Assembly: GCA_943736015.1 (NCBI GenBank)
Contig: OX031059.1
Span: 45,271,159-45,335,158, forward strand
DNA: 64,000 bases
Source: Tridacna crocea
Lineage: Eukaryota > Mollusca > Bivalvia > Cardiida > Cardiidae
Direction: 5' to 3'
Part shown: piece after piece, positions 1,584 to 64,000 of the stretch
Numbering within the stretch: the stretch's first letter is position 1
Layout: each line of letters starts with the position of its first letter
Notes under the pieces: generated by a model
The model's database searches: none
What the model was told of the DNA's origin: nothing
Seen by the model: only the letters and a program-made list of their open reading frames with translations
Program-made: the position numbers and the translations under genes

Positions 1584-2661
1584 GCAAATATCTAATAAAA
1601 ACTATTATTTTTACATTAAAAAACAAGTTGCAAACTGAATCGCTTTCCTGTTGGATTTCTTATAAGCTTTGTTCTAATTTCATCGAGCTTGCATATGTCG
1701 CTTGTATTGTGGACTTAATTCTAGGAATTCATGTGTTTTTTTTATTTGAAGCAAGGGTGAAGACTAACTGCTTTCTATCAGTGTATAACCTATGGTTCGA
1801 AGGACAATGCAAACTGTCAAAGTATTTCTGATAAGCACAACTGACACTCAAGATTGTTAGATACTCTTCGTTTTTTTCTCGGGAGGTATTTTTTTTAACT
1901 TTGGTTAATTTATCCGAGGCCGAGGATAATAAACCAAAATGATCTATATTGCAGTTATTTAACCTAAAGCTTCTCATAAAAACCATTTAAGTTAGATAGT
2001 ACTTAAACATAGCACGCTTAGGAAAGAACAAGATTTAATGAATGGCAATTCATCTGCAAGCGTGAAATCCGAATCAGGCAAACGTTTTGTGTGCATTTAC
2101 GCTGCACTGAATAGCGTTCGTGATTTACCAGTAAATGCCTAAACAATCTTACGAAAGACTATAAACGTCACCATGATGGCGAAAAAATGTACCCAAATTT
2201 CTTAGAGTACAACTAGCAATATTGCACTGGAATCTTTTCATGATTTTCCTTTAGAACTTGTAGCAAGTGCAGACACATAAAGCATCTATTATACGTCTGT
2301 AACAATCACATCGTCATATGAGACCTTCATAGGACAGATTTATTTCGATATCACGCATCTACATCTTATGTAATAATACAAACCTCTTGGTTTTTGCCAT
2401 TGATAAAATGAATAATTTTACTTTTTATCGAAAACAGTGCACTTTTAAAAATGAAATGGCTTCCCATTCTTTTTATTCTTATTATGCTTGAATTAACTAG
2501 TGGCGTAGGAAGATTTTGCCGTATTTCCGGGACACCTTTTAACTTTTTGCCAATTAATCATGGAGGAAGAGGGCATTTTAAAATGTAGTTGTAAACGGAG
2601 GAAATCCTGGTTACTCACAATTTTTTGCTTTTTCAACGATACATATGAGCCATGCTCTGTG
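1584..2661. other. Unassigned sequence
   Basis: No exon, RNA gene or repeat structure recognised on either strand. Confidence 0.45.
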
Positions 2662-2800
2662 AATGGGGTGCTTAATGCATCTGCAAGAAGTTTCAACTCA
2701 TGTCACCCTGCGCACTACACGTAGGCTGACATGGGTCAAAACTTTTTGCCGTTGGTCGAGAATCTGAATATGTTAGAACCAGCTTACCTGAAGATTCACC
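2662..2800 (+). repeat. Family L hairpin repeat, diverged
   Basis: Shares with 38874-39029 the order GCATCTGCAA, a TCAACTCATGTCA...TGACATGGGTCAAA imperfect hairpin, then AACAGCTTACC-like sequence. Related debris (GACATGAATCGATAC...TTTTTGTAGATGCA) lies at about 2945-2975. Confidence 0.45.
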
Positions 2801-2975
2801 TGGTCAAATAAACTGGATTTTATAAATCCATAGCTATGTGATGTTGTTTAATCCATGAATTACTTTTGACTAGCAAACGCCTATATCTATGGGTAGACCG
2901 ATCTATTGACATGCAGAAAGTAGGTGTCTGTGGAGTGCCCTGTCTGACATGAATCGATACTTTTTGTAGATGCAC

Positions 2976-3175
2976 TAGGGTCCGTATTCACCAACCATTC
3001 GCAAGACCATTCTTGGTCTTATTCTTAAATTTTTTGTCAATGTGAAAGTAACAGAACTTCTGATTGGCTAAACCAAATGGTTTAGCCAATCAGAGGTTCT
3101 GTTATTTTCACAGTCAGGAAATCTTGAAGAATAAGACAAAGAAAGTTCTTAAGAATGGTTGGTGAATATAGACCT
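2976..3175. mobile_element. Family D MITE, complete (reference copy)
   Basis: Defines family D, a nearly full-length palindrome of about 195 bases. The outer arms are GTATTCACCAACCATTC and GAATGGTTGGTGAATA. The centre is ATTGGCTAAACCAAATGG followed by its complement. The outermost bases TAGGGTCC / GACCTA also pair. No coding capacity. Confidence 0.7.
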
Positions 3176-5326
3176 AGGTCCCCTATTCAGGGTATGGCTC
3201 ATTTTTTCGTAACGAGTTTTTCGCTTTTTGTCTAGTTGATTACAATTCAAACGCTAGATTCAATTGACACTTACTATGATACCATACATTTTCGTAATAA
3301 ATCATTTCTTATATTTAAATGTAAACTGACGGTGTACGAGGGTATGGTACTAAATACAATTTGTTTGTTTACAGCCGATAGAATTTGATTCTTTGCACAT
3401 GTTTATGATCAATGAGTGGGGAACAGAAACAAGAAAGATCCATTAAAAAGCACAGATGGCGTAACGGGTACTGTAATATGAATGCCTGAATGAATATAAA
3501 GCTCTTAAATTGTGGTTTAAAACGAAAGGTAATAGAGAACAGTAATTACGCCTGTTGTTACCGCATTTTCCTCAATGTTTTGCATGTGTTGAAAGCAGCA
3601 ATTTTCAATTATGTAAATGGTTTTCAAGATTAATTGTTATGCAAGTGATCGTTGGAAAAGGTACAGTTGCTGCTAAAAATGGTATGTCTGTGATCATAAT
3701 TATAGATGCAGACTGTATTTGGTTATACGCTAACACGTAGAAAATATCAAATCGCAAATTAATCCAAGAACGGAATTAACCCTATCGTTTTCATTTGCTA
3801 AGGTGTAAATAAGTGGGACAGATATCGATAGCAGTAGCAACCTTTATATGAATTGGTGCCATAAGTAGGTTCGCAATTATATACACATTTTTACCCATCC
3901 CAAATTACTATGTACTCATTCGAGACTTATTTTATAAATTAGGTCAAAAGCCAGCTTGTGTAGCTATGCTTGATTTTATGCTGATAACTCATCTGATCAA
4001 TCTTTATGCTATTTATTCTATTGTCTTCGTTTTAAGAGCATAGATAATAGGAAAAGGTAAGTAAGTGAGTGAGTGAGTGAGTGAGTGAGGCATATTAACA
4101 AGTGATACAGAATGGAAAGACATTACTACACTTTGATTTCGTACAATAGGGCTCTCGATGTGAGTACAAAGTTCAACTATTTTACACACAGAAATCACAC
4201 TGATTTAGCCAAAGAACACGAACAAGCCAAGGATTGCCATTAAAATGACTGAATATACTAGAGGCCATACTCATTGTGGCGGTGCATGAGTGGTGACACT
4301 ATACTTTTATTCGTTTTCGAAAGTGCATGTAGGGGAGCCATATTGTTTACTATATGGAGTGGTTCAGGGTTTTTGGGAGTATACATGTAAAATTGTGCTA
4401 CTTTCATTATCAAATCGAGCCCGTATCAACTTTGTTTTTCTATTTTGGCTGAATTTTTTTTTAAAACATTTAAAATACCATAATTTCATTGTCAGATCGA
4501 TAAAAACCAGATCGTATCCAAGATAGCTTAGAGTTTAAAAATTTGTCATGTAGTATCACCACGTGGACCTCTACGTCGTTTGTTCAAGTGATGGCCTAAA
4601 AAATTGAACCGCTGTAATGTGCCCTACATCAGAAAGAACTGATTTGCGGCGCCAATGATGTTGTGCATCAATATTTTTCTTGTTACTTTACCTTTAACCT
4701 GCTGGTTGAAATTATCCTGTTATTGAGATAAAGAGTAGATCACAGTTCGGAAGCAAATAGAATAAACACTATCATCTCGGTTGTACAGTGGTTGTACACT
4801 GTTTTTGAAAGGCTGTAGGGCTTGAAACAATAATATATGGGTATGTTTTGAATGTTTGACTCGGTAAATCCATAAATAAACATTTGACTGTGTGTCAGTC
4901 ATCAACGAGTATAAGGCACATTTAACACCGTTTTTCTTGTCTTGGCAATATTTCCTCTCACTAGATCGTGAAAAAAAGATCTTAGATAAGTAAATGTAAA
5001 GTTGTTCAGGTTTCATGATCTGATGAATTACTTCTTGCAATATATCGTCCACCATCTAAATGCCGTGAAAACCAGACATTTAATTGTGTTCCTGGCAAAG
5101 TAATCCAATCTGTGATAGAGAAATTGATTATCATAGCTTTGTGGCTACGAGAGCGAGTTGCTATTTATCATTTATGACTTGGGACGTTTCTTAAGATGTA
5201 CAATTTACTTTGTTACTCTGATGAATTAAGTTAATACACGATAACGGAACAAACATCTGTCGAACGAAAATATGGCCCTTTCATGTTAGAGGACGTTTGC
5301 TCTCTTGTTTACCATTTTGCCCTGTT
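3176..5326. other. Unassigned sequence
   Basis: No exon recognised. It contains a (GTGA)n tract and a faint A-like scrap at about 3550-3660 (accgcattttcc, gatcgttggaaaaggta). Confidence 0.45.
4060..4089 (+). repeat. (GTGA)n microsatellite
   Basis: Seven near-perfect GTGA/GAGT units in a row. Confidence 0.9.
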
Positions 5327-5562
5327 TTAACTCATAAAATTTTATCAAACGACACAATGTAGCATTAGTCCAACTTGAAAGTATTTGAAGACCACAAAAT
5401 AAACGTGACTCCAATTTCAAAGATTGTTTTGGGAAGGATAGGAAACAATATGGAAAAAGGAGGAAATGCTGGTTACAAGCATTTTCTCCTTTTTCCACAG
5501 TGTTTTCTAAAGTCTTCTTTTTCAGGATCGTTAAAAGCCAGGATTGTGTAGTAAAGGGTTAA
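5327..5562 (+). mobile_element. Family A MITE, complete
   Basis: Starts TTAACTC and ends AGTAAAGGGTTAA. Its hairpin (GGAGGAAATGCTGGTTACAA) has a few mismatches. Its right TTAA (5559-5562) is also the left end of the next element. Confidence 0.7.
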
Positions 5563-5762
5563 ACATGCTCATTAAGTGAAAATGAAACTTTCAATGCGAT
5601 AATAAAACCCATATTTTGCTCTTTCAAATGCTATTTTGGGGAAGATTTTTCCACATCAGACAATGTAGATCAATGATCAGACTGCACCTTCTGTACCGTC
5701 TAATCTTGATCTACACTGTTCACATAAGGTCCTTGAGTCGCTCTAAGCAGATATAGGGTTAC
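5559..5762 (+). mobile_element. Family C MITE
   Basis: Family C has TTAA ends, an AT-rich left part (tttgctatttcaaa-like) and a right-hand hairpin, here AGACAATGTAGATCAATGAT...GATCTACACTGTTC. It ends GTCGCTCTAAGCAGATATAGGGTTA. It is wedged between two family A copies with shared boundary bases. Confidence 0.65.
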
Positions 5763-5990
5763 CCTTTACCAAACGATAAAAGTTTTGACTGATCAAAATT
5801 GAAAACGATTGCAGACTATATATTGAATTCGGTATAAATCAAGGGATATGTCTTTGATCAGCTACAAAACATCTTTGGCAGTTGGAAAAAGGAAAAAATG
5901 TTGGTAACAACATTTTCTCCTTTTTACCATTACGTTTTCAAGTCTTTTTCCCAAGTATCGTCAAACACGTCTTTTTTCTTCAACCTTTTT
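5759..5990 (+). mobile_element. Family A MITE, right end decayed
   Basis: Begins TTACCCTTTACCAAACGA, with hairpin GGAAAAAATGTTGGTAACA and its complement. The right terminus is eroded. Confidence 0.6.
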
Positions 5991-7350
5991 TCCTGTAAAG
6001 GATAAAAAAGAATTCCATTAATATCACAGCAACGAATGCACAACTAAAAGCCCCGTCTTACAGTGAACTCGTATTCAGCCTGATTCGTCTTTGTGCGACC
6101 GAATGATTTTGTTTTACTGTCTATTCGCAAAGATCAAGCCCATCTACTCTAACTAAATTGAGCATATCATGCTGCTTTTGTCATGTACAATGTTCTAACC
6201 AAATATTGTAAATAACATTTCTTGTATATGTCATTCATGTATCAATACTGCTATTTGTGAACATAATACATCTGTCCTTGAAAACTATTAGATAGATGAA
6301 ATCATCCAGCCTTCTGTTTTCAAACAGTGAGTGCGACAGACGATATTTATGGTTTTGAAAATAATGTAACAAAAGAAGCCAAGCCAGATAAACTTTGCCC
6401 CACTAATACACCATCCATTTATCCTCTTTCATTTTTTCCATAACACTTTTTTTAAGTTGTTGATTTAACGAGCAATCACTCTTTTCATCGAAATGTTTGG
6501 AATAGCTTCTTATTCATGTATAAAACGTCGAATCATATATATATGTACTCGTATACAGCTATAAATATGAATCACCCTCGATGTACAGAGATAGTTTTAA
6601 AGTCTTCTGCTGCAAACTTGGTTTAGGAGGCTAAGTATTAACCCTGTTCTTTTACATACTTCGTTCACTGTTGAAACAGCTCATAGGAGTTCATATGAGA
6701 TAAGGTGAGAAAAAGGTCTTTAGGAAGCATGAACTGCTTCTCTATTTTTTTCTCACAGGAAAAGTAACAAAGCAAAACGCAACTATTTGGCATCCCTTCA
6801 ATGGCTCTTTTTTTTTCTCATAGTGTTTTCTATAACTTTATTTTCCAACGTCCATTTTTTACAGTTCTTATGAATAGTTAGTTTTGAGAATGTATCAGCT
6901 CAAACCTCTTTAGAACCATTCGGACAATTTATGTGAATAGCCACAACATTCTGTGGCATTCAAAACGTTAGGAAAAACACTGTAAGATGTGCATTAGATA
7001 GAGAATTGTATGCATATAATATTATATGCTTTTAATCGGGCGTAAAAATGTAGGTCTGAGTTATAAAATTGTCATTAAAAATGCCAAACAGAATTCAACG
7101 TCTAGGATTCTTCTTGATAGCACACAAAAAAAGAATAATTTATTGACATAAACATCATCTTATCCATCACTACATTCATGTAATGCCTTCTGCATGTTCT
7201 GTGATAGTATAGGTCAGTGACACAATATGCTAAAGAAAGCAACTATTCGGTTCTGTTTTCATGTATAAGAGGAGGTGAATATAGTGTAATGGAAATTAAA
7301 GTTAAACGTTGTTAGTTTCTTGTACTGAGGAAGCTTATAGCTGAAGATGT
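5991..7350. other. Unassigned sequence
   Basis: No exon recognised. A possible very diverged family A relic lies at about 6630-6835 (TCTCATAGTGTTTTCTATAAC at its right). Confidence 0.4.
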
Positions 7351-20287: not shown

Positions 20288-20464
20288 CTCCTTCCTTCCC
20301 AAAGTTTTGTTTCGTCAGAACGAAACAGACAACCCTAACTTCGAGGGCAAACTGTTATTTGAGTCGTATTCTGGCAAAAAGGAATTATATGCAAACCCGT
20401 GATGCATCATACCAATAAATTCACTCCATCATTTCATCCCGGACGAGCCCCCATCTTACGAACA

Positions 20465-20741
20465 AAGTCCGTAACAAAGAAACAAATAAATGCGTACCTC
20501 AAATACAAACCACATCTGGCGGGATTCGAACCCACGAAGGACAAATATCCTCGTTTTTCGAGGATTAAAATACCAATACCATAACCACTGAGCCAAAGGG
20601 ATATCTCTTTGGCTCAGTGGTTATGGTATTGGTCTGTTAATCCTCGAAAAACGAGGATATTTGTCCCTTCAGGGGTTCAAATCCAGCCAGATGTGGTTTG
20701 TATTTGAGCTACGCATTTATTTGTTTCTTTGTTACGGACTT
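20465..20741. mobile_element. tRNA-containing foldback (paired inverted tRNA-like units)
   Basis: The two arms (20465-20602 and 20603-20741) are nearly perfect reverse complements meeting at GATATC. The outer ends are AAGTCCGTAACAAAG and CTTTGTTACGGACTT. Each arm contains a tRNA-like unit: an A-box-like TTGGCTCAGTGGTTATGG and a B-box-like GGGGTTCAAATCC. CTGTTAA near 20636 resembles a tRNA-Asn (GUU) anticodon loop, but the arms do not fold as a normal tRNA, so I call it tRNA-derived. It may be a SINE pair or an inverted duplication. Confidence 0.65.
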
Positions 20742-20918
20742 AGCTCATAAGGTCATAAAATCCATTATTTATAAGAAACGACGGAGTCGTGAGGTTCTCT
20801 GTTCCTTTGACATGCAAAAAAAAGACATGCAAGATAGACTACTTGATGACATTCGTTTATAACACGAGAGATTATCACAAAACATTCAAATCGAATGGAT
20901 TACAGAATATGATAAATT

Positions 20919-34914: not shown

Positions 34915-36034
34915 TTAATAGCGAGTGTAACTGCCATTTGCCCCTATGCATGCAGTACATCTCCGCCTCATCGTAAGAATAAGGTTTGCTATCACTTGCT
35001 GAGGAATGTTATTCCATTCATTGATCAAGGCGTTGGTAAGTTCATTTACGTTCCTAGGCGGCTGACGTCGAGCGCTAATGCGTCTGCCCAGCTCATCCCA
35101 AACATGCTCAATCGGAGACATGTCTGGAGAAAAAGACGGCCAGTCTAGCACTGGAATCCTATTTGTTGCCAGAAAATTGACAGTGAGACGGGCACTATGA
35201 GCTGGGGCGTTGTCATGTTGGTATATAAAGTTATCTCTCCTGTAATTTTGCCGTAAAAAGGGTAATGCCACAGGACAAAGAACGTTGTTAGTGTAACGCA
35301 TAGCATTTACATTTCCATTTAAAATAACAAGATGTTTTGTTAAACTGGGCTATACCAGCCCACACGTGAACACTGCTGCCACCACCATGGTTACGTTTCT
35401 GAACACAGTTCTCCAAAAACCGCTGACCGCGTTCACGGTACACTCTTGTACGGCCGTCGCAATTTTGCACATTAAACTTGGATTCATCAGTAAAAAAAAA
35501 CTGATCCCCACTGCCTGCGATTCCATCGTAAGTGAGCCCGAGCCCAGTTTAACCTCGCCGCCTTATGTCTGTCGGTCAAAATGAAACCTTTCTTCGGTCT
35601 GTGGCAACGGAGCCCAACTTCTCGAATTCTCCGCCGAACTGTACGGGCATGGATTGGGCGTCTGCAATGAAACAATTTAAAAATTTGTCTAGAAATTGGG
35701 TCGTAATTTAAAGCAATTGTAATCAGATCGTTTATTACAAAGATGAAAGAACTTACCCTTGGTGTCCAATTGTTTGTCTGGCACTGACGGTAGCCGGTCG
35801 GAATGGAAACCTTCGATGCAATCGACGTAAGTTGGCGTCTTGACGTCGGGTTGTTATTTTTCGCTGACCAGGCCGGGGTCGATCTTTAACTGTCCCAGTG
35901 GCCTGGTAACGATCTCTTAGGCGAAGAATAGTTGACGGATGGCAGTTATAGTGTCTCGCGACGTCAGAAACACGTACCCCGGCTTGTAGCATTCCAATTG
36001 CGCCAGATCGTTCATGTTCGGACAAACGTGGCAT
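34915..36034 (-). pseudogene. Tc1-type DD34E transposase, one intron, two frameshifts
   Basis: Transposase that would cut and reinsert its own element at TA sites in the nucleus. I chose the start MPRLSEHER at 36034 over an upstream ATG because it begins the conserved helix-turn-helix region (exon 36034-35757). A 95-bp intron (35756-35662; donor GG|GTAAGT, acceptor CATTGCAG) joins GHQG to RPIHARTVRRR in frame, and the second DNA-binding part follows. The catalytic residues are D in TDESKF, D in QHDNAPAH and E in SPIEHVW, with 34 residues between the last two. The frame breaks at a nine-base T run just before TDES (near 35492; one extra base) and again near 35338 after AQFNK, so no full-length protein can be made as read. 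The C-terminal part to TRY is open. Confidence 0.9.
35662..35756 (-). other. Spliceosomal intron in the Tc1 transposase
   Basis: GTAAGTTCTTTCATC at the donor and a T-rich tract before TTTCATTGCAG at the acceptor. Removal restores the glycine codon (GG|A) and the expected family reading. Without splicing the frame stops at the TAA within the donor. Confidence 0.85.
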
Positions 36035-37593
36035 GATTAATAAAGTAAAAAATATAATGCCAACTTGTTTTTTATACATGTAAGACTACAAGCTACACGT
36101 GGAATGGTAAAATATTTTGCTTCAACGATTCGTGGGGTATGCCACGTGCTAAACTTGGTAAAACAGCGATCGCGTAGATCGTGGTGGTCAGTGCCTAAAA
36201 ACGCCGGTATCTAATGTAGATAAAGCAGACAGCCGTTACCACTCAGAGTTTTTACCTTTTAAAGAAGACTAAAAATATTGGTGGCGCAAAAAATAAATTT
36301 TCATTTTTTGCGTTTTCAAAGTCCTTCAGTGTATCTGTAATCAGGAGTAACAACCTTCATCATAGCATACGTCATCGGAGACATTTTAAATCCGCCATTT
36401 TAGTTTTAAAAAGGAAAGTTTTTCAGCTTGTACATTATTGTTATTGAAGATCTGTCCAAACAAAGCAGTGCATATGGTACCTGACAACTTTCTCCGTTAG
36501 TATACATGAATATTTTGTTCATTAGTTTCGTTGTTTTTGAAATTACCTCCGCACAATTTTCGAAGCCGGTGACACATTTGCGATTTAAAAAATAGATGTC
36601 GTGTGCAATGCCGTTAAGAATAATTGTGTTGAAGTGTTTAGAGCTACAACATTGTTTCATGTCATTTTGATTTCACGACAGATATATTTACCGTCACCAG
36701 ATGAAGTAGGTATGCTATGTAAATTTTAGATACATACGATCTATTTAAAGTAATTAACCTGCACTTGGCGGCTATTCCGACATCTCTGCTATGACGTAGG
36801 TTGTCGCCCTTGTGTAATGATGATAAATGATGATTAGCCTGTGTGTGTGTCGTTGTTTGTTTAGATAATTTTTTCAAGCCTAAAATTGGGGACAAAACGA
36901 TCAAGTGAATAAAGGGTTTGTTTCGAGGCTTGAAATGATCACGTTATGCTTATGTCACTAAAACGTCACTCTGGACATTTACGACGAAAAGGCTAATCGT
37001 CGACGATCATCGATGTAAACAAACACATTATGAGGCATGGTAGGATCTGTTCTAGTTTCAAAATTCTTTTTTTTCAAAATTCTTTTTGCTGCCATTGACT
37101 GGAACTTTTGCGATATGCACCGTTACATATACTGAAAGTCATAATAATCACCATATTTTTACATGGTAAAAATTAAATTTACTTGAACTTAATAAACAAA
37201 TGGACGCTTTTTAGACTTAAAATAAGCATATTCTAAGAAAAGTTGTCTAATTGGCTTGGGCATAACGTCTATGCCAATGAGATACGTAGTCTGGACAATT
37301 TGACCGAGATAAACATGATTTAGATTTTGAGTAAGATCTGATCACGTCCTTATATAAGCTACAAGAAGATGAATTTGGTTCAGGTTTCTTTCGAACAGCT
37401 CCTTTTCTCAGATATGTTTCGATTTCGGCCGAAATCCAGCAAGAACACTAATTATAAAGGTAACGAGTTAACACATCAAAGGCTGACAAAACAAGAGTTT
37501 TCTTTCCGCCCGACCTTGTATTTCGTGTTGTCGTAAATGTAATCTAGCGTACAATTAAACAAATGGGGACCCTGGCATTTGTAACAAACGCAA

Positions 37594-42660: not shown

Positions 42661-43293
42661 TATCGTCGGTTTAAAGGTGGCCCTTCAGATTTTGGGCCGA
42701 AAATTTTACAGAAATACAAAAAAATTACCCTTATACTCCCAAAGCCTTATAATTTTCGTTCATAAAACCCCAGTAATCGAAAACCATCCAACAACAAGAG
42801 AAATTAGAGATTTACTACAACCCAGGTCGACACTGAAGGGAAACACCGTCTATTTTTACATCAGCAACTCGCTCATGCACATACCGAAAATACGCAGGCA
42901 TAGCTTCAAACATAGCGTCTGAAGTTCCAGACATTATGGAAAATAACTACTTGTTTGTTAAGTTATGGAATTTAAGAGTCATTAGTCACATGCCAGTCAC
43001 TTAACATTCCCACAATGTTTTTTTTTTTTGTTTTTTTGGCGGGAAGTCTTAAAATAGTTTAAGAGGCTACGTAGCCTTTTAAGGGAATACCACCAAAAAC
43101 ATTTTTTTTTTTTGTAATTTTATGATTCTTAATTATTGATGATTTGTATTGTTTTTCATATAAATTTCAGTGATATATATATTTTTAATGTTGTGTGATG
43201 TGAAAATTCTAAATACCCACCTTTAATTCCAAATCCTCGTAACTACAGCTTGTAACGAGCTGTAGTTACGAGGTTTTGGAAGTAAATCGACGT
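42661..43293. mobile_element. Family G palindrome interrupted by family F
   Basis: TATCGTCGG-TTTAA is cut from TTCCAAATCCTCGTAACTAC by family F, with TTAA on both sides. The remainder forms the palindrome CTCGTAACTACAGCTTGTAA / GAGCTGTAGTTACGAGG and ends AAGTAAATCGACG. It stops about 80 bases before a receptor exon. Confidence 0.8.
42671..43226 (+). mobile_element. Family F element nested in family G
   Basis: TTAAAGGTGGCCCTTCAGAT to CCCACCTTTAA. Colinear with 33000-33533; differences include an insertion (TTTTACAGAAAT) near 42709 and longer T runs. Confidence 0.8.
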
Positions 43294-43373
43294 TATAATA
43301 CTTATATATTTTGCAAGTCCTTGCTGCATTTTTCATTCATTATATTTGTCTTTTTTTGCTTTGTTTCTTCCAG

Positions 43374-43922
43374 GGCCACGACAATGAACGACTCCTCGTT
43401 TAATTACATCGACGAAATATGGAAGCAAATTCGGACCAGAGCAAATGGAACTGGACATATCCCTGGAAATCTGAGTGAAAATGAACTTATACAACTGTTG
43501 CAGAATCATTTGCATGGAATTACAAAGTACAATGATACAAATATCACCACTCACTTTAAAGGAAGCATCTGGGACTATATTGAAAAGGCCGGTCATGGTC
43601 CGAGACGCGGCCCCCTGGACACAGCTATCGCCATTACTTTTGTGTACGGATTTATATTTTTATCAGGAATATTTGGTAACGTTTGCACGTGTATAGTGAT
43701 AGCCAGAAATAAATATATGCATACAGCCACGAACTTTTACCTGTTTAACCTTGCAATAGCCGACATATTGTTACTAATTATAGGACTTCCGCCGGAAACG
43801 TATCTAATTTGGTCAGCGTATCCATGGATATTCGGAGAACCATTTTGTATTATTAGGACAATGCTTGCAGAAATGTCAACAAACGCTAGTATTCTAACCA
43901 TTACAGCATTTACTGTAGAAAG
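43374..43922 (+). CDS. Neuropeptide GPCR (pyrokinin / PRXamide / NMU-receptor-like), first coding exon
   Basis: Seven-pass plasma-membrane receptor that would bind an amidated neuropeptide and signal through G proteins. The exon follows a strong acceptor (TTTGTTTCTTCCAG, ending 43373), so a 5' non-coding exon lies upstream. I start translation at ATG 43384; an in-frame ATG at 43276 lies in repeat and intron. Residues 1-79 are an extracellular N-terminus with N-glycosylation sites at N2, N21, N29, N50 and N53. TM1 is about 80-104 (GN at 98-99), TM2 about 116-140 (NLAIAD, D127) and TM3 about 155-178 (C155, then EMSTNASILTITAFTVER). The exon ends in the arginine codon of ERY, AG|GTGAGT. YPWIFGEPFC and AFTVERYVAICHP resemble insect pyrokinin receptors. 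The ligand group is inferred; the rhodopsin class is certain. Confidence 0.9.
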
Positions 43923-43935
43923 GTGAGTTGTCTTT

Positions 43936-45306: not shown

Positions 45307-45533
45307 TAACTCTTTAATAAAAACAATCTTTGGTTTTTACTAACCTGAGATAGAAGCCTTTTGAAAACATTGTGGGAAAAGGAAAAAATGCTGGTAGCCA
45401 GCATTTTCTCCTTTTCCCACAATGTTTTCTACCCTACTGGAAACATTTTTTTTTGAGATGCCTTTATTTTATCATCTGCAAGTGCTTTCAATTTGGACCA
45501 GTCTAAAATTTTGTCGTTTTGGTTAAGAGTTAA
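45307..45533 (-). mobile_element. Family A MITE, complete
   Basis: Left end TAACTCTTTAATAAAAAC eroded, right end TTTTGGTTAAGAGTTAA. The hairpin carries a compensated change (GGTAGCC for GGTTACC). Confidence 0.7.
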
Positions 45534-45816: not shown

Positions 45817-46077
45817 GACCTCATTGTAGCCTATAGAAATGACTAAGAAATAACTATATATTATGGAACTAAAGAACCTTTGTCAATGTTCTGTGAAAAG
45901 GGAGGTAAAATGCATGTTTAAAATTCATTTTACCCAGCAAGTTCTCGCATCGAAAAAGACCCATTTTATGACGAAATCGGCTTTGATTTTCGTAGAATAA
46001 GTTAGACTGGTTCTTAGAAATACAGAAAATTTACCAAGAGCAAAATGAATCCGTCAAGGTTAGCATGGGCGGACTGA

Positions 46078-46470
46078 GCAGGTGTAAAATAGAGAAACGA
46101 CCCTCCCCTACAAAATACCCCATGGGCAACTTCTCTACATAGAGAAATGACCCGAGTCATTATTCTACGTAGAGGAATGACCCGAGTCATTATTCTACGT
46201 AGAGGAATGACCCCAAAAAGTCATTTCTCTACGTAGAGAAATGACCCGGGTCATTCCTCTACGAAGTGAAATGGTTTCTTGTGTCATTTCTCTACGTAGA
46301 ATGATGACCCGGGTCATTTTGAGGTCATTTTGAGGGTCATTTCTCTACGTAGAGAAATGACTCAGGTCATTATCTACGTAGTGAAATGATTTCTAGGGTC
46401 ATTTCTCTACGTAGAATGATGACCCGGATCATTTTGTAGGAGAGGGTCATTTCTCTGCATTACACCTGCA
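46078..46470. mobile_element. Inverted-repeat element filled with alternating palindromes
   Basis: The outer inverted ends GCAGGTGTAAAATAGAGAAA and TTTCTCTGCATTACACCTGC continue inward through GACCCTCCCCTACAAAAT / ATTTTGTAGGAGAGGGTC. Between them two self-complementary motifs alternate: TCTACGTAGA and TGACCCGGGTCA (or TGACCCGAGTCA), repeated with small variations about ten times, linked by GAAA/TTTC arms. There is no open frame of note. I do not recognise the family. Confidence 0.75.
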
Positions 46471-46637
46471 CATTTATCACAGAGCACGACTCAGATTTGG
46501 TTAACACGATTACTTCCAAAGTCTTCTTCCGAAATTGTATTTTAGACAGCCCATGTTAATAAAAACTCATTTTTTTGTGATCATGAGGTTTTACATTTGC
46601 CACAAAATGAGGGACAGTGTGCAACATGCATCAGCCT

Positions 46638-48752: not shown

Positions 48753-48981
48753 TTAACTCATTACCAAACGACAAAATTTAAGATTTGTCCACATTAAAAG
48801 CATTTGAAGACGACAAAATAAAAGTGACCCAAAATTTGAAATTTGTTTTGTGAAGAATAGAAAACATCGTGGGAAAAGGAGAAAATGCTGGTTACCAGCA
48901 TTTTCTCCTTTTCCCACAATGTTTTCTAAAAGCTTCTTTCTCAGGGGTGTCAAAAGTAGGGATTGTGTGGTAATGGGTTAA
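48753..48981 (+). mobile_element. Family A MITE, complete
   Basis: TTAACTCATTACCAAACGAC and GTGTGGTAATGGGTTAA. The hairpin is perfect over about 28 pairs (48867-48925). One of the youngest-looking copies. Confidence 0.8.
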
Positions 48982-53288: not shown

Positions 53289-53332
53289 AACTTCTAGTAA
53301 ATTTTCTCAGTTACGTATGTTTCTGTTTTCAG

Positions 53333-53742
53333 GTACGTGGCTATTTGTCACCCATTGAAGTCACATAAACTTTCCGGCTTAAAGAGAGTACTCCGTGTTA
53401 TAGCATGTATATGGTTCCTAGCTTGCCTGTTTTCCATACCTCTTACTGTACAGTTCAAAGTAGTGTACGCTGTGGATAACAAGAATAAACCTATTAAAGA
53501 ATCGGCGATATGTGGTATCAGTGAACACAACTATATTGCCAGGACGTTTGAACTATCGACGTTTTTATTCTTTATATTTCCCATGTCTCTAGTCACTGTT
53601 ATGTATACATTTATTGCCCTTGCCATTCGGAAGTCTGGTCTCTACCGGGACGGATCGGACAGCTCTAATAGGGACCGATTGAACGTCAACGAGGCGTTTT
53701 CGCAGCAAATACGAGCAAGACGGTCTGTGGTTAAAATGCTAG
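53333..53742 (+). CDS. Neuropeptide GPCR, second coding exon (to ICL3)
   Basis: Continues the receptor from 43922: the first G completes the ERY arginine and the exon reads YVAICHPLKSHK. It spans residues 181-316. TM4 is about 197-219 (VIACIWFLACLFSIPLTVQF), the second extracellular loop carries C240 (partner of C155), TM5 is about 252-279, and the third intracellular loop ends in QQIRARRSVVKML. The donor is CTAG|GTACGT, leaving phase 1 with a G, which fits the family's next residue, valine, at the start of TM6. I found no TM6-TM7 exon (no C-W-x-P or NPxxY coding) between here and 64000, so the rest lies outside or the gene is broken. Both conserved cysteines and the E-R-Y are intact. Confidence 0.9.
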
Positions 53743-53784
53743 GTACGTATAATTCATTTTCGTACAACCGACTGGTTCATGGAT

Positions 53785-53865
53785 GTCGTCGGTTTACTTC
53801 AAAAACTTCTAAATTACAGCTTGTAACAAGCTGTAGTTACGAGGTTTTCGAAGTAAACCGACGAT
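53785..53865. mobile_element. Family G palindrome, complete
   Basis: GTCGTCGGTTTACTTCAAAA ... TTACAGCTTGTAACAAGCTG ... TTTCGAAGTAAACCGACGAT. It starts 42 bases after the receptor donor; the receptor frame reads into it until a stop. Confidence 0.75.
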
Positions 53866-54136
53866 ATGATTCTCCAAGGACATGCAGATAAGTAACAAAA
53901 TGCAAATAGTATCGAACCATATCAGTCTGCGGGGCTGAACAGGCTGACCAAGGTCGACCTCTTTTGTTGCAGTTATACTAAACCTCGTGTTCACAGAGCA
54001 TGGTTCAAATATAAACCGACTGCTTAGTATTATCGTTCATCTTCCTTGTCTGCTATTTTGTATGCTATTCTGAGCCAGAAAGCCTAAAAACTAGAATTTT
54101 CAACAAAATATCAATGTAATCTATGGAGAGTGAAGG

Positions 54137-63216: not shown

Positions 63217-63512
63217 GTTTGCAACATGCAAAAAGGGACATTCGGGCATTTGCGTAAAGTGTCGTCCGTCCGTGCAAGCTAATCCGAGAGGGCACTTTAC
63301 GACTACATTAGATTTTGTGCTACAGTAGACTTGCCCAAAATAGAAATTTGCATGAAAAACGGAAAGTGTCGTTTCCTATACCATTCATGTTGGGACACAT
63401 TTCGAGGGCCGCTTGCGACTTCATTTCCTCTTGAACTATCAATGGTAGTGTCTAACAATACGGACGGACGACACTTTACGCAAATGCCCGAATGTCCCTT
63501 TTCGCATGTGGC
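63217..63512. mobile_element. Family B element with replaced right core
   Basis: Termini GTTTGCAACATGCAAAAAGG and CCCTTTTCGCATGTGGC. The outer part of the second hairpin is normal, but its centre is non-B sequence (CATGTTGGGACACATTTCGA to CTATCAATGGTAGTG). Confidence 0.7.
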
Positions 63513-63770
63513 TTGCAACACGCGAAAAGGGGCATTCGGACATTTGCGTAAAGTGTCGTCTCGGATCAGCCTGCGCAGTCCGCGCAGGCTAATCCGAGAC
63601 GACACTTTACGACTACATTACATTTTTGTGCATCAGTATATTTGCGAAAAACAGAAAATTACATAGAAACGGAAAGCGTCCTTTCGGATTAGCCTGCACG
63701 GACAGCGTAGCCTGATCCGAGACGACACTTTACGCAAATGTCCGAATGCCCCTTTACGCGTTTTGCAAAC
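63513..63770. mobile_element. Family B element, complete
   Basis: Termini TTGCAACACGCGAAAAGGGG and CCCCTTTACGCGTTTTGCAA. The left hairpin is perfect through GATCAGCCTGCGCAGTCCGC. A well-preserved copy. Confidence 0.8.
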
Positions 63771-64000
63771 CATGTTGCAAACCAATTTTGTAGTTTGGTT
63801 CTGAAGGTAAAAGGTTAATTTATACCGGTTGCCTACAATCAGTTTGATAAGATATTACTTGAAAGTGCTTTTCATACGGTCTAGTTACCATTGTAAGAAC
63901 AGTAAATCTACTATTATTTCTTAAACGTTCTTCTCATCCTGGCCACAAACTATACATCTACATTTGGTCTGACAAAACTGACAACGCAGCACATAGCGGG

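Follow-up and report, generated by a model that had tools for sequence, protein, structure and literature searches.

An abundant CCGG-targeting transposon family with alternating palindrome arrays in Tridacna crocea, probably of the Ginger1 type

The palindrome-rich segment studied here, which lies in a 64,000-nucleotide stretch of the Tridacna crocea genome (the window), is one copy of an abundant, dispersed and apparently non-coding transposon family. It is quite probable that this high-copy, CCGG-targeting family with terminal inverted repeats (TIRs), which comprises MITE-sized copies and rarer foldback relatives of 2.7-3.9 kb, is moved in trans by a transposase of the Ginger1 type, and it is most likely to be described as a MITE/foldback family of the Ginger1 type in which tandem duplication has multiplied a subterminal motif. 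All genome-wide counts given below refer to the assembly of the window itself (1,048,827,098 bases in 31 contigs).

The element and its palindrome array

The whole element (46083-46464, 382 bp, unstranded) reads TGTAA...TTACA, with boundaries deduced from other family copies, in which conservation begins at TGTAA and the preceding bases are CCGG or a variant, and from the empty sites of other copies. Its left TIR (46083-46116, + strand) holds the first half-unit of the array (46089-46103), and the right TIR (46431-46464, - strand) holds the last one (46444-46458). On both sides lie the 4-bp copies of the target site, CAGG at 46079-46082 and CCTG at 46465-46468 (both +), of which the left one differs from the right one, the family target being CCGG; at least one of the two 4-mers would have been altered since the insertion. 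Taken together, the inverted ends of this copy extend over 42 nt with 86% complementarity (46075-46116 and 46431-46472). A preliminary description had correctly recognised a bounded element with inverted ends, but had started it at GCAGG and ended it at CCTGC, which correspond to the target site plus one flanking base.

The array is built from a single 15-nt half-unit, GTAGAGAAATGACCC, joined head-to-head through TACGTA and tail-to-tail through CCCGGG or variants, so that what had been regarded as two alternating palindrome types is one motif in two joint orientations, with a predominant alternation. Half-unit matches at 11 or more of the 15 positions number 18 within the element, as opposed to 14 elsewhere in the window; when the entire window was shuffled base by base, five such shuffles gave 7-18. 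Once two weak units are placed by hand (46263-46277, 9/15; 46363-46377, 8/15), 20 half-units alternate without exception, the first and the last falling within the TIRs and the other 18 forming the inner array (46124-46425, unstranded), whereas without those two placements 2 of the 17 neighbouring pairs share direction. Three gaps of 18-23 nt in the array contain partial units, which were left uncounted. The array also shows a tandem duplication with a period of 115 (46220-46436, +; 1.9 copies, 91% match) and two letter-identical 30-bp direct units (46154-46183 and 46184-46213, +).

The sequence TCTACGTAGA occurs in six exact and two one-mismatch copies within the element, and at this stringency the rest of the window has none; these eight copies with at most one mismatch compare with a mean of 1.29 and a largest value of 5 in shuffles. 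Exact palindromes of at least 10 nt number eight in the element, whereas 1000 dinucleotide shuffles average 0.41 and never exceed 3, and none of the 393-base windows clear of the element (50-base steps) exceeds five. Two of the eight are 26 nt long (GTCATTTCTCTACGTAGAGAAATGAC, unstranded, at 46220-46245 and again at 46336-46361), two have CCCGGG centres (14 and 16 nt) and the remaining four are 10-nt cores inside imperfect units, which makes the earlier wording, with perfect palindromes and every unit self-complementary, an overstatement. The predicted DNA fold of the element reaches -125.5 kcal/mol (z -19.6, a value equalled by none of 100 shuffles) and, together with the palindrome and TCTACGTAGA counts, confirms the presence of a palindromic structure at this place. 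The fold is very strong on both strands and the second lowest among 487 windows. When folded as RNA of the + strand, the segments 20437-20829 (-237 kcal/mol) and 63405-63797 (-204 kcal/mol) are about as strong as the element (-224 kcal/mol).

The surroundings of the element include two open frames of the + strand that match successive parts of a neuromedin-U-receptor-like GPCR, one at 43243-43926 (7tm_1 positions 1-83), for which neuromedin-U receptors are the closest among solved structures, and the next at 53301-53891 (7tm_1 positions 73-207). Since the element is flanked by these two frames, it probably sits within a presumed intron, ~9.4 kb long, of a neuropeptide-receptor-like gene. The 64-kb window gave no match when scanned for Rfam families and tRNAs. 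Phage and plasmid collections searched with blastn, as well as viral and prokaryote contigs scanned for exact 20-mers, likewise gave none, which is no surprise for DNA of an animal.

Other repeats are present in the window. Broken pieces of a Tc1/mariner-like transposase (HTH_23, HTH_Tnp_Tc3_2, DDE_3) map to 34915-36085 (-), and in a second foldback-like structure at 236-877 degenerate 15-16-bp tandem units of the TTTCGCCCAATGCCA type lie in the left arm and recur as reverse complements in the right one, the outer arms being 86% complementary over 50 nt. A palindrome around GTGGGAAAAGGAGAAAATGCTGG recurs at 45363-45429 and 48858-48928, both copies being 97% complementary, and similar letters appear in loci L078, L028, L047 and L031, so this is probably another common MITE-like repeat of the genome. 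Exact 14-nt palindromes are found three times in the case of ATATGACGTCATAT (56513, 57366 and 60761) and twice in that of AGGCTACGTAGCCT (33375 and 43064).

A dispersed family of short copies

The terminal 21-mer TGTAATGCAGAGAAATGACCC is found exactly at 4238 places in the genome, compared with none for its reversed control, and TCTACGTAGA at 7147 places, compared with 1019 for the control. Among the best 40 of 3680 candidates, matches to the window copy are spread over many contigs, and the closest one shows 81% identity over query positions 5-387. A sample of 74 sequences (73 loci and the window) yielded 58 distinct elements in which both ends could be paired, and 15 ends without a partner; 57 of these elements come from contig C1 and the remaining one is the window copy. 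Elements with such ends and a varying number of palindromes, as envisaged in the preliminary description, do exist.

Except for two elements of 2737 and 3721 bp, the paired copies measure 78-395 bp (56 of 58). These short copies carry from 1 to 21 half-units each (matching at least 10 of 15 positions), with opposite orientation in 446 of the 490 neighbouring half-units, and include copies of 78-84 bp with just 1-3 half-units. Their lengths group at intervals of ~32 nt (the vector strength of 0.45 is the best among periods of 20-49), and a foldback shape is predicted for all 56 (RNA z between -33.6 and -7.9, with a median of -19.35, each against 30 single-base shuffles). The window copy is the second longest of them and the one with most palindromes (eight). 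A 52-nt terminal-repeat query that includes GCCGG matches many short copies at each end, the match extending over as much as 47 bp when counted from TGT. In 22 compared copies, 19 start with TGTAA and 21 end with TTACA, a share biased by the presence of TGTAA in the TIR queries.

With regard to the sample itself, L003 overlaps L002 and was excluded from every tally, L053 and L070 have flanks in common and possibly represent one duplicated insertion, both being counted, and the pairings of L051, L061 and L063, also counted, look imprecise at one end. Among the 15 unpaired ends, L030, L037 and L038 are ends of the larger elements L007 and L056, the one in L051 is an extra end next to the paired copy of that locus, and those of L036 and L050 each have a weaker right end; the others stayed unpaired. 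Terminal repeats also occur in tandem: L081 (489-669) contains 3.9 direct copies of the left one (period 47, 96% match), possibly the seed of a satellite, and the right end of L082 was seen by eye to be repeated in the same manner.

Target site and duplication

CCGG precedes 2411 of the 4238 exact terminal 21-mers, as compared to about one in a thousand expected from base composition (our own arithmetic, ~36% G+C), and GCCGG precedes 1806, the corresponding terminal 26-mer having no occurrence as a reversed control. On the other hand, ACGG precedes only 66 of the 4238, against the 24% given for CCGT/ACGG in Ginger1 (PMC2836005). The genome-wide figures of 4238 and 2411 are free of the selection bias that affects the tallies of CCGG in the paired copies (42 of 56 on the left and 37 of 56 on the right), where L025-L054 and further regions had been picked with a pattern bearing GCCGG.

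Because CCGG is its own reverse complement, a duplicated target and a longer inverted repeat are inseparable by counting. In 29 of 56 copies the same 4-mer stands on the left and on the right, with a mean of 27.97 after shuffling, and this lack of excess is what would be expected with CCGG at most sites; the case for a duplication therefore rests on empty sites. In L031, uninserted copies of the host repeat read ACATG-CCGG-GAACA or nearly so (L004 92%, L044 87%, L031:2204 85%). In the case of L016, whose element is now bordered by CGTG and CCTG, the host repeat reads GGATTAG-CCTG-CGC in 12 of the 13 uninserted copies listed, and for L034 (CCGG/CCTG) CCTG is present in five of the six rows shown out of 31. 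L062 gives weaker support, with CCGG in one of the six rows shown (L005). One 4-mer before the insertion and two after it imply a 4-bp duplication, so that these alignments show the family to duplicate CCGG, or a closely similar 4-mer, on insertion.

Matches spanning pre-insertion sites were obtained for 27 of the 58 elements, and the call relies on L031, L016 and L034, with the weaker L062. Other spanning matches show only the TIR of the same or another copy (e.g. L065, L051, L022_1858, L007, L056, L001 and L070/L053), or are weak, shifted or gapped (e.g. L005, L045, L047 and L052, the six rows shown for L045 being gapped at the site). A target duplication adjoining the GCAGG ends, as proposed for checking in the preliminary description, was given up after the family copies shifted the boundary: none is convincing there because GCAGG itself is the target, and the family does show a 4-bp duplication at its empty sites.

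Helitrons and Helentrons are not known to have target duplications or long TIRs, and are ruled out by the TIRs and the 4-bp duplication of the family. hAT elements produce 8-bp target duplications and are equally ruled out by a 4-bp one; the lone 8-bp near-match at the window copy does not coincide with the TIR ends, and the 35x35 grid searched would be expected to hold ~0.5 pairs of this kind (our own arithmetic).

Larger relatives and candidate enzymes

Among the best 40 of 1198 candidates, several inward-facing TIR pairs located 2.7-3.9 kb apart share the ends of the family. Four such relatives, L007 (1840-5560), L056 (653-3389), L076 and L077, share long pieces, mostly 88-95% alike, and have arms of ~400 bp with palindromes together with a (TAC)n-rich stretch, L007 showing a further palindrome array in its middle. 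The arms of L007 and L056 (about 410-440 bp, at about 80%) exceed the range of Ginger1 TIRs. No transposase was recognised in these four elements, where a gene interrupted by introns could have escaped recognition; their internal frames are shorter than 160 aa, and Pfam gave no match for three frames inside the larger copies (one in L076, two in L007). Two other candidates were discarded: the ends located 6.4 kb apart in L055, considered as a possible autonomous copy, belong to two separate short copies, and L028 has a left arm with no partner in a further 5 kb (L075).

A search for PF00665 returned mostly long frames as in retrotransposons among the best 150 of 2019 candidates, whereas one for PF02338 (77 candidates, 40 matches), when crossed with that list, led to L078. 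This locus contains, at 2537-6016 (C3:50119336-50122815), an intact frame of 1160 aa with rve (5e-15) and OTU (3.2e-11) domains and a long repetitive region. The same rve and OTU layout is reported for some Ginger1 enzymes (PMC2836005). The best-scoring relatives of the L078 frame, among 98 of 1991 candidates, are two decayed copies with 40% and 46% identity and 4 and 2 stops. Family ends are absent from the 6.5-7 kb read around this gene and its two decayed relatives, and L080 shows only matches with 5 and 6 mismatches to the 20-nt end plus two half-units with three mismatches. The L078 frame is possibly a domesticated or end-less Ginger1-type gene. Ginger1-type enzymes are thus, or once were, present in the genome, but their role as autonomous partners of the palindrome family is putative.

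Classification and proposed mechanism

Ginger1 transposons are described as having TGTNR ends, 4-bp target duplications of CCGG or CCGT/ACGG, and TIRs of 40-270 bp (Bao, Kapitonov, Jurka 2010; PMC2836005), and Ginger2 as sharing these ends with a preference for AT-rich RTATAY (PMC2836005). The family studied here shows TGTNR termini, a 4-bp duplication, CCGG as its main target and, in the short copies, TIRs of a similar length, and it is therefore placed as Ginger1-type by its ends and target. The earlier view that it belongs to no known family finds no support, since termini, target and duplication fit the Ginger1 type and both foldback elements and MITEs with internal repeats are known. As with MITEs, the copies are short, apparently non-coding and numerous, with TIRs and a target duplication (56 of the 58 paired ones are below 400 bp), and their long, internally repetitive inverted arms fold back, a feature that defines a form and not a superfamily. 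The enzyme could still be an integrase-like one outside Ginger1, such as Ginger2, an IS481EU-like transposase or one of an unknown TG...CA group: several integrase-like groups are described as sharing TG...CA or TGT...ACA ends and 4-bp duplications, the Ginger1-like enzyme copies of this genome were found without family ends, and ACGG is rare before the termini. We regard this alternative as unlikely in view of the specificity for CCGG, which is the mark of Ginger1 (PMC2836005).

As for the pathway followed by the family, a Ginger1-type, gypsy-integrase-like transposase would act in trans on the TGTAA ends and insert the elements at CCGG with a 4-base stagger. The occurrence of the half-unit GTAGAGAAATGACCC near both ends and all along the array raises the possibility that it is an internal (subterminal) site bound by the transposase, at present or in the past, to which we give about an even chance; longer arrays would then offer more assembly places. 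In Galileo, which serves here purely as an analogy, footprinting located one binding site, and the repeated TIRs were found to contain additional ones, proposed to give specificity (PMC3688188). Inward-facing half-units would have come to lie head-to-head and tail-to-tail, resulting in a palindromic unit of 30 bp, and the array would have subsequently grown and shrunk by slippage, unequal exchange or template switching at hairpins. Traces of growth are seen in the 115-bp duplication of the window copy, the repeated right end of L082 and the tandem left ends of L081. If the array does bind the transposase, the natural series of lengths from 78 to 395 bp would amount to a dose-response test of the amplification of internal sites, as well as of the survival of palindromic arrays in animal chromosomes.

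The array could equally be a row of selectively neutral, slippage-prone passenger palindromes with no binding role, a reading compatible with either enzyme. Tandem repeats are reported in other MITEs and, within this family, lengths vary freely, copies of 78-84 bp have 1-3 half-units, and local duplications occur; the array motif, however, is the one present inside both TIRs, and neighbouring half-units keep opposite orientation in 446 of 490 cases, two features that would not be required of a passenger. The passenger and binding-site views are about as likely as each other, and the identity between TIR and array motifs tips the balance only slightly towards binding. Recruitment by the host has also to be considered, as the TGACCC/GGGTCA half-sites, which presumably resemble those of nuclear receptors, could form an intronic regulatory cluster, or the hairpin a source of small RNAs, for the receptor gene. 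The presumed intronic position and the strength of the fold on either strand would agree with such a role, but all 56 short copies sampled fold strongly and only length and palindrome number distinguish the window copy, which makes recruitment very improbable. Finally, palindromic arrays are hard to assemble, and the preliminary description had considered a single occurrence with support from collapsed or chimeric reads alone. For the family, an artefact is contradicted by exact termini in their thousands, by ends that pair coherently, by empty sites and by relatives on many contigs, and such an origin of the segment is scarcely credible.

Within the preferred Ginger1-type MITE/foldback interpretation, a bolder proposal is that these elements are a eukaryotic counterpart of the bacterial BIMEs, where a putative Ginger1-type subterminal site was amplified in alternation and the array would be a functional landing platform tuned by copy number instead of a passenger repeat. 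We consider it somewhat improbable. If true, elements nearly self-complementary throughout would look alike to the enzyme from either end, and shortening or extension in steps of ~32 bp would keep the two ends; such elements would have spread to thousands of CCGG sites.

Comparison with known systems

Both Ginger1 and the present family show TGTNR ends, a 4-bp CCGG duplication and TIRs that range from tens to hundreds of bp, whereas full-length Ginger1 elements are described as 2.6-7 kb long and encoding an integrase-like transposase (PMC2836005), in contrast to a family with no recognised coding capacity, alternating palindrome arrays and few ACGG targets. The foldback-like Galileo, of the P superfamily, has similarly long and internally repeated TIRs with extra transposase-binding sites, but it depends on another transposase superfamily, is reported with duplications of 7 or 8 bp and shows direct tandem repeats (~140 bp in a D. 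willistoni copy) instead of alternating 15-nt units (PMC3688188, PMC4168063). Tetris, a foldback element of Drosophila virilis, likewise has part of its TIR in a variable tandem array, and its transposase-coding copy is reported as not found; it differs in its 220-bp direct repeats, its 8-10-bp duplication and its assignment to Mutator by its authors (PMC4079207).

Among MITEs with tandem repeats, Xmix/Xstir, miDNA4, the pearl family and DTC84 are also short and non-autonomous with internal repeats, DTC84 having a conserved palindrome near the repeat junction, but their arrays are described as tandem, and the descriptions consulted speak of no half-unit that alternates and recurs in the TIR (PMC9659126, PMC5139131). 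A further parallel is offered by the bacterial BIMEs, which are described as regularly spaced, alternating REP palindromes and proposed to be non-autonomous, although they are linked to a tyrosine transposase (RAYT) in bacteria, so that the analogy is one of form only (PMC2817692). Internal tandem repeats in MITEs, repeated arms in foldback elements and the alternating repeats of BIMEs are thus already on record, whereas among the matches listed from a largely open-access literature no title or abstract opening describes a MITE of the Ginger type whose palindromes alternate in an array. The kind of element is known, and it is the organisation that is new: a short alternating half-unit common to the TIR and the array, in a CCGG-targeting family with thousands of termini.
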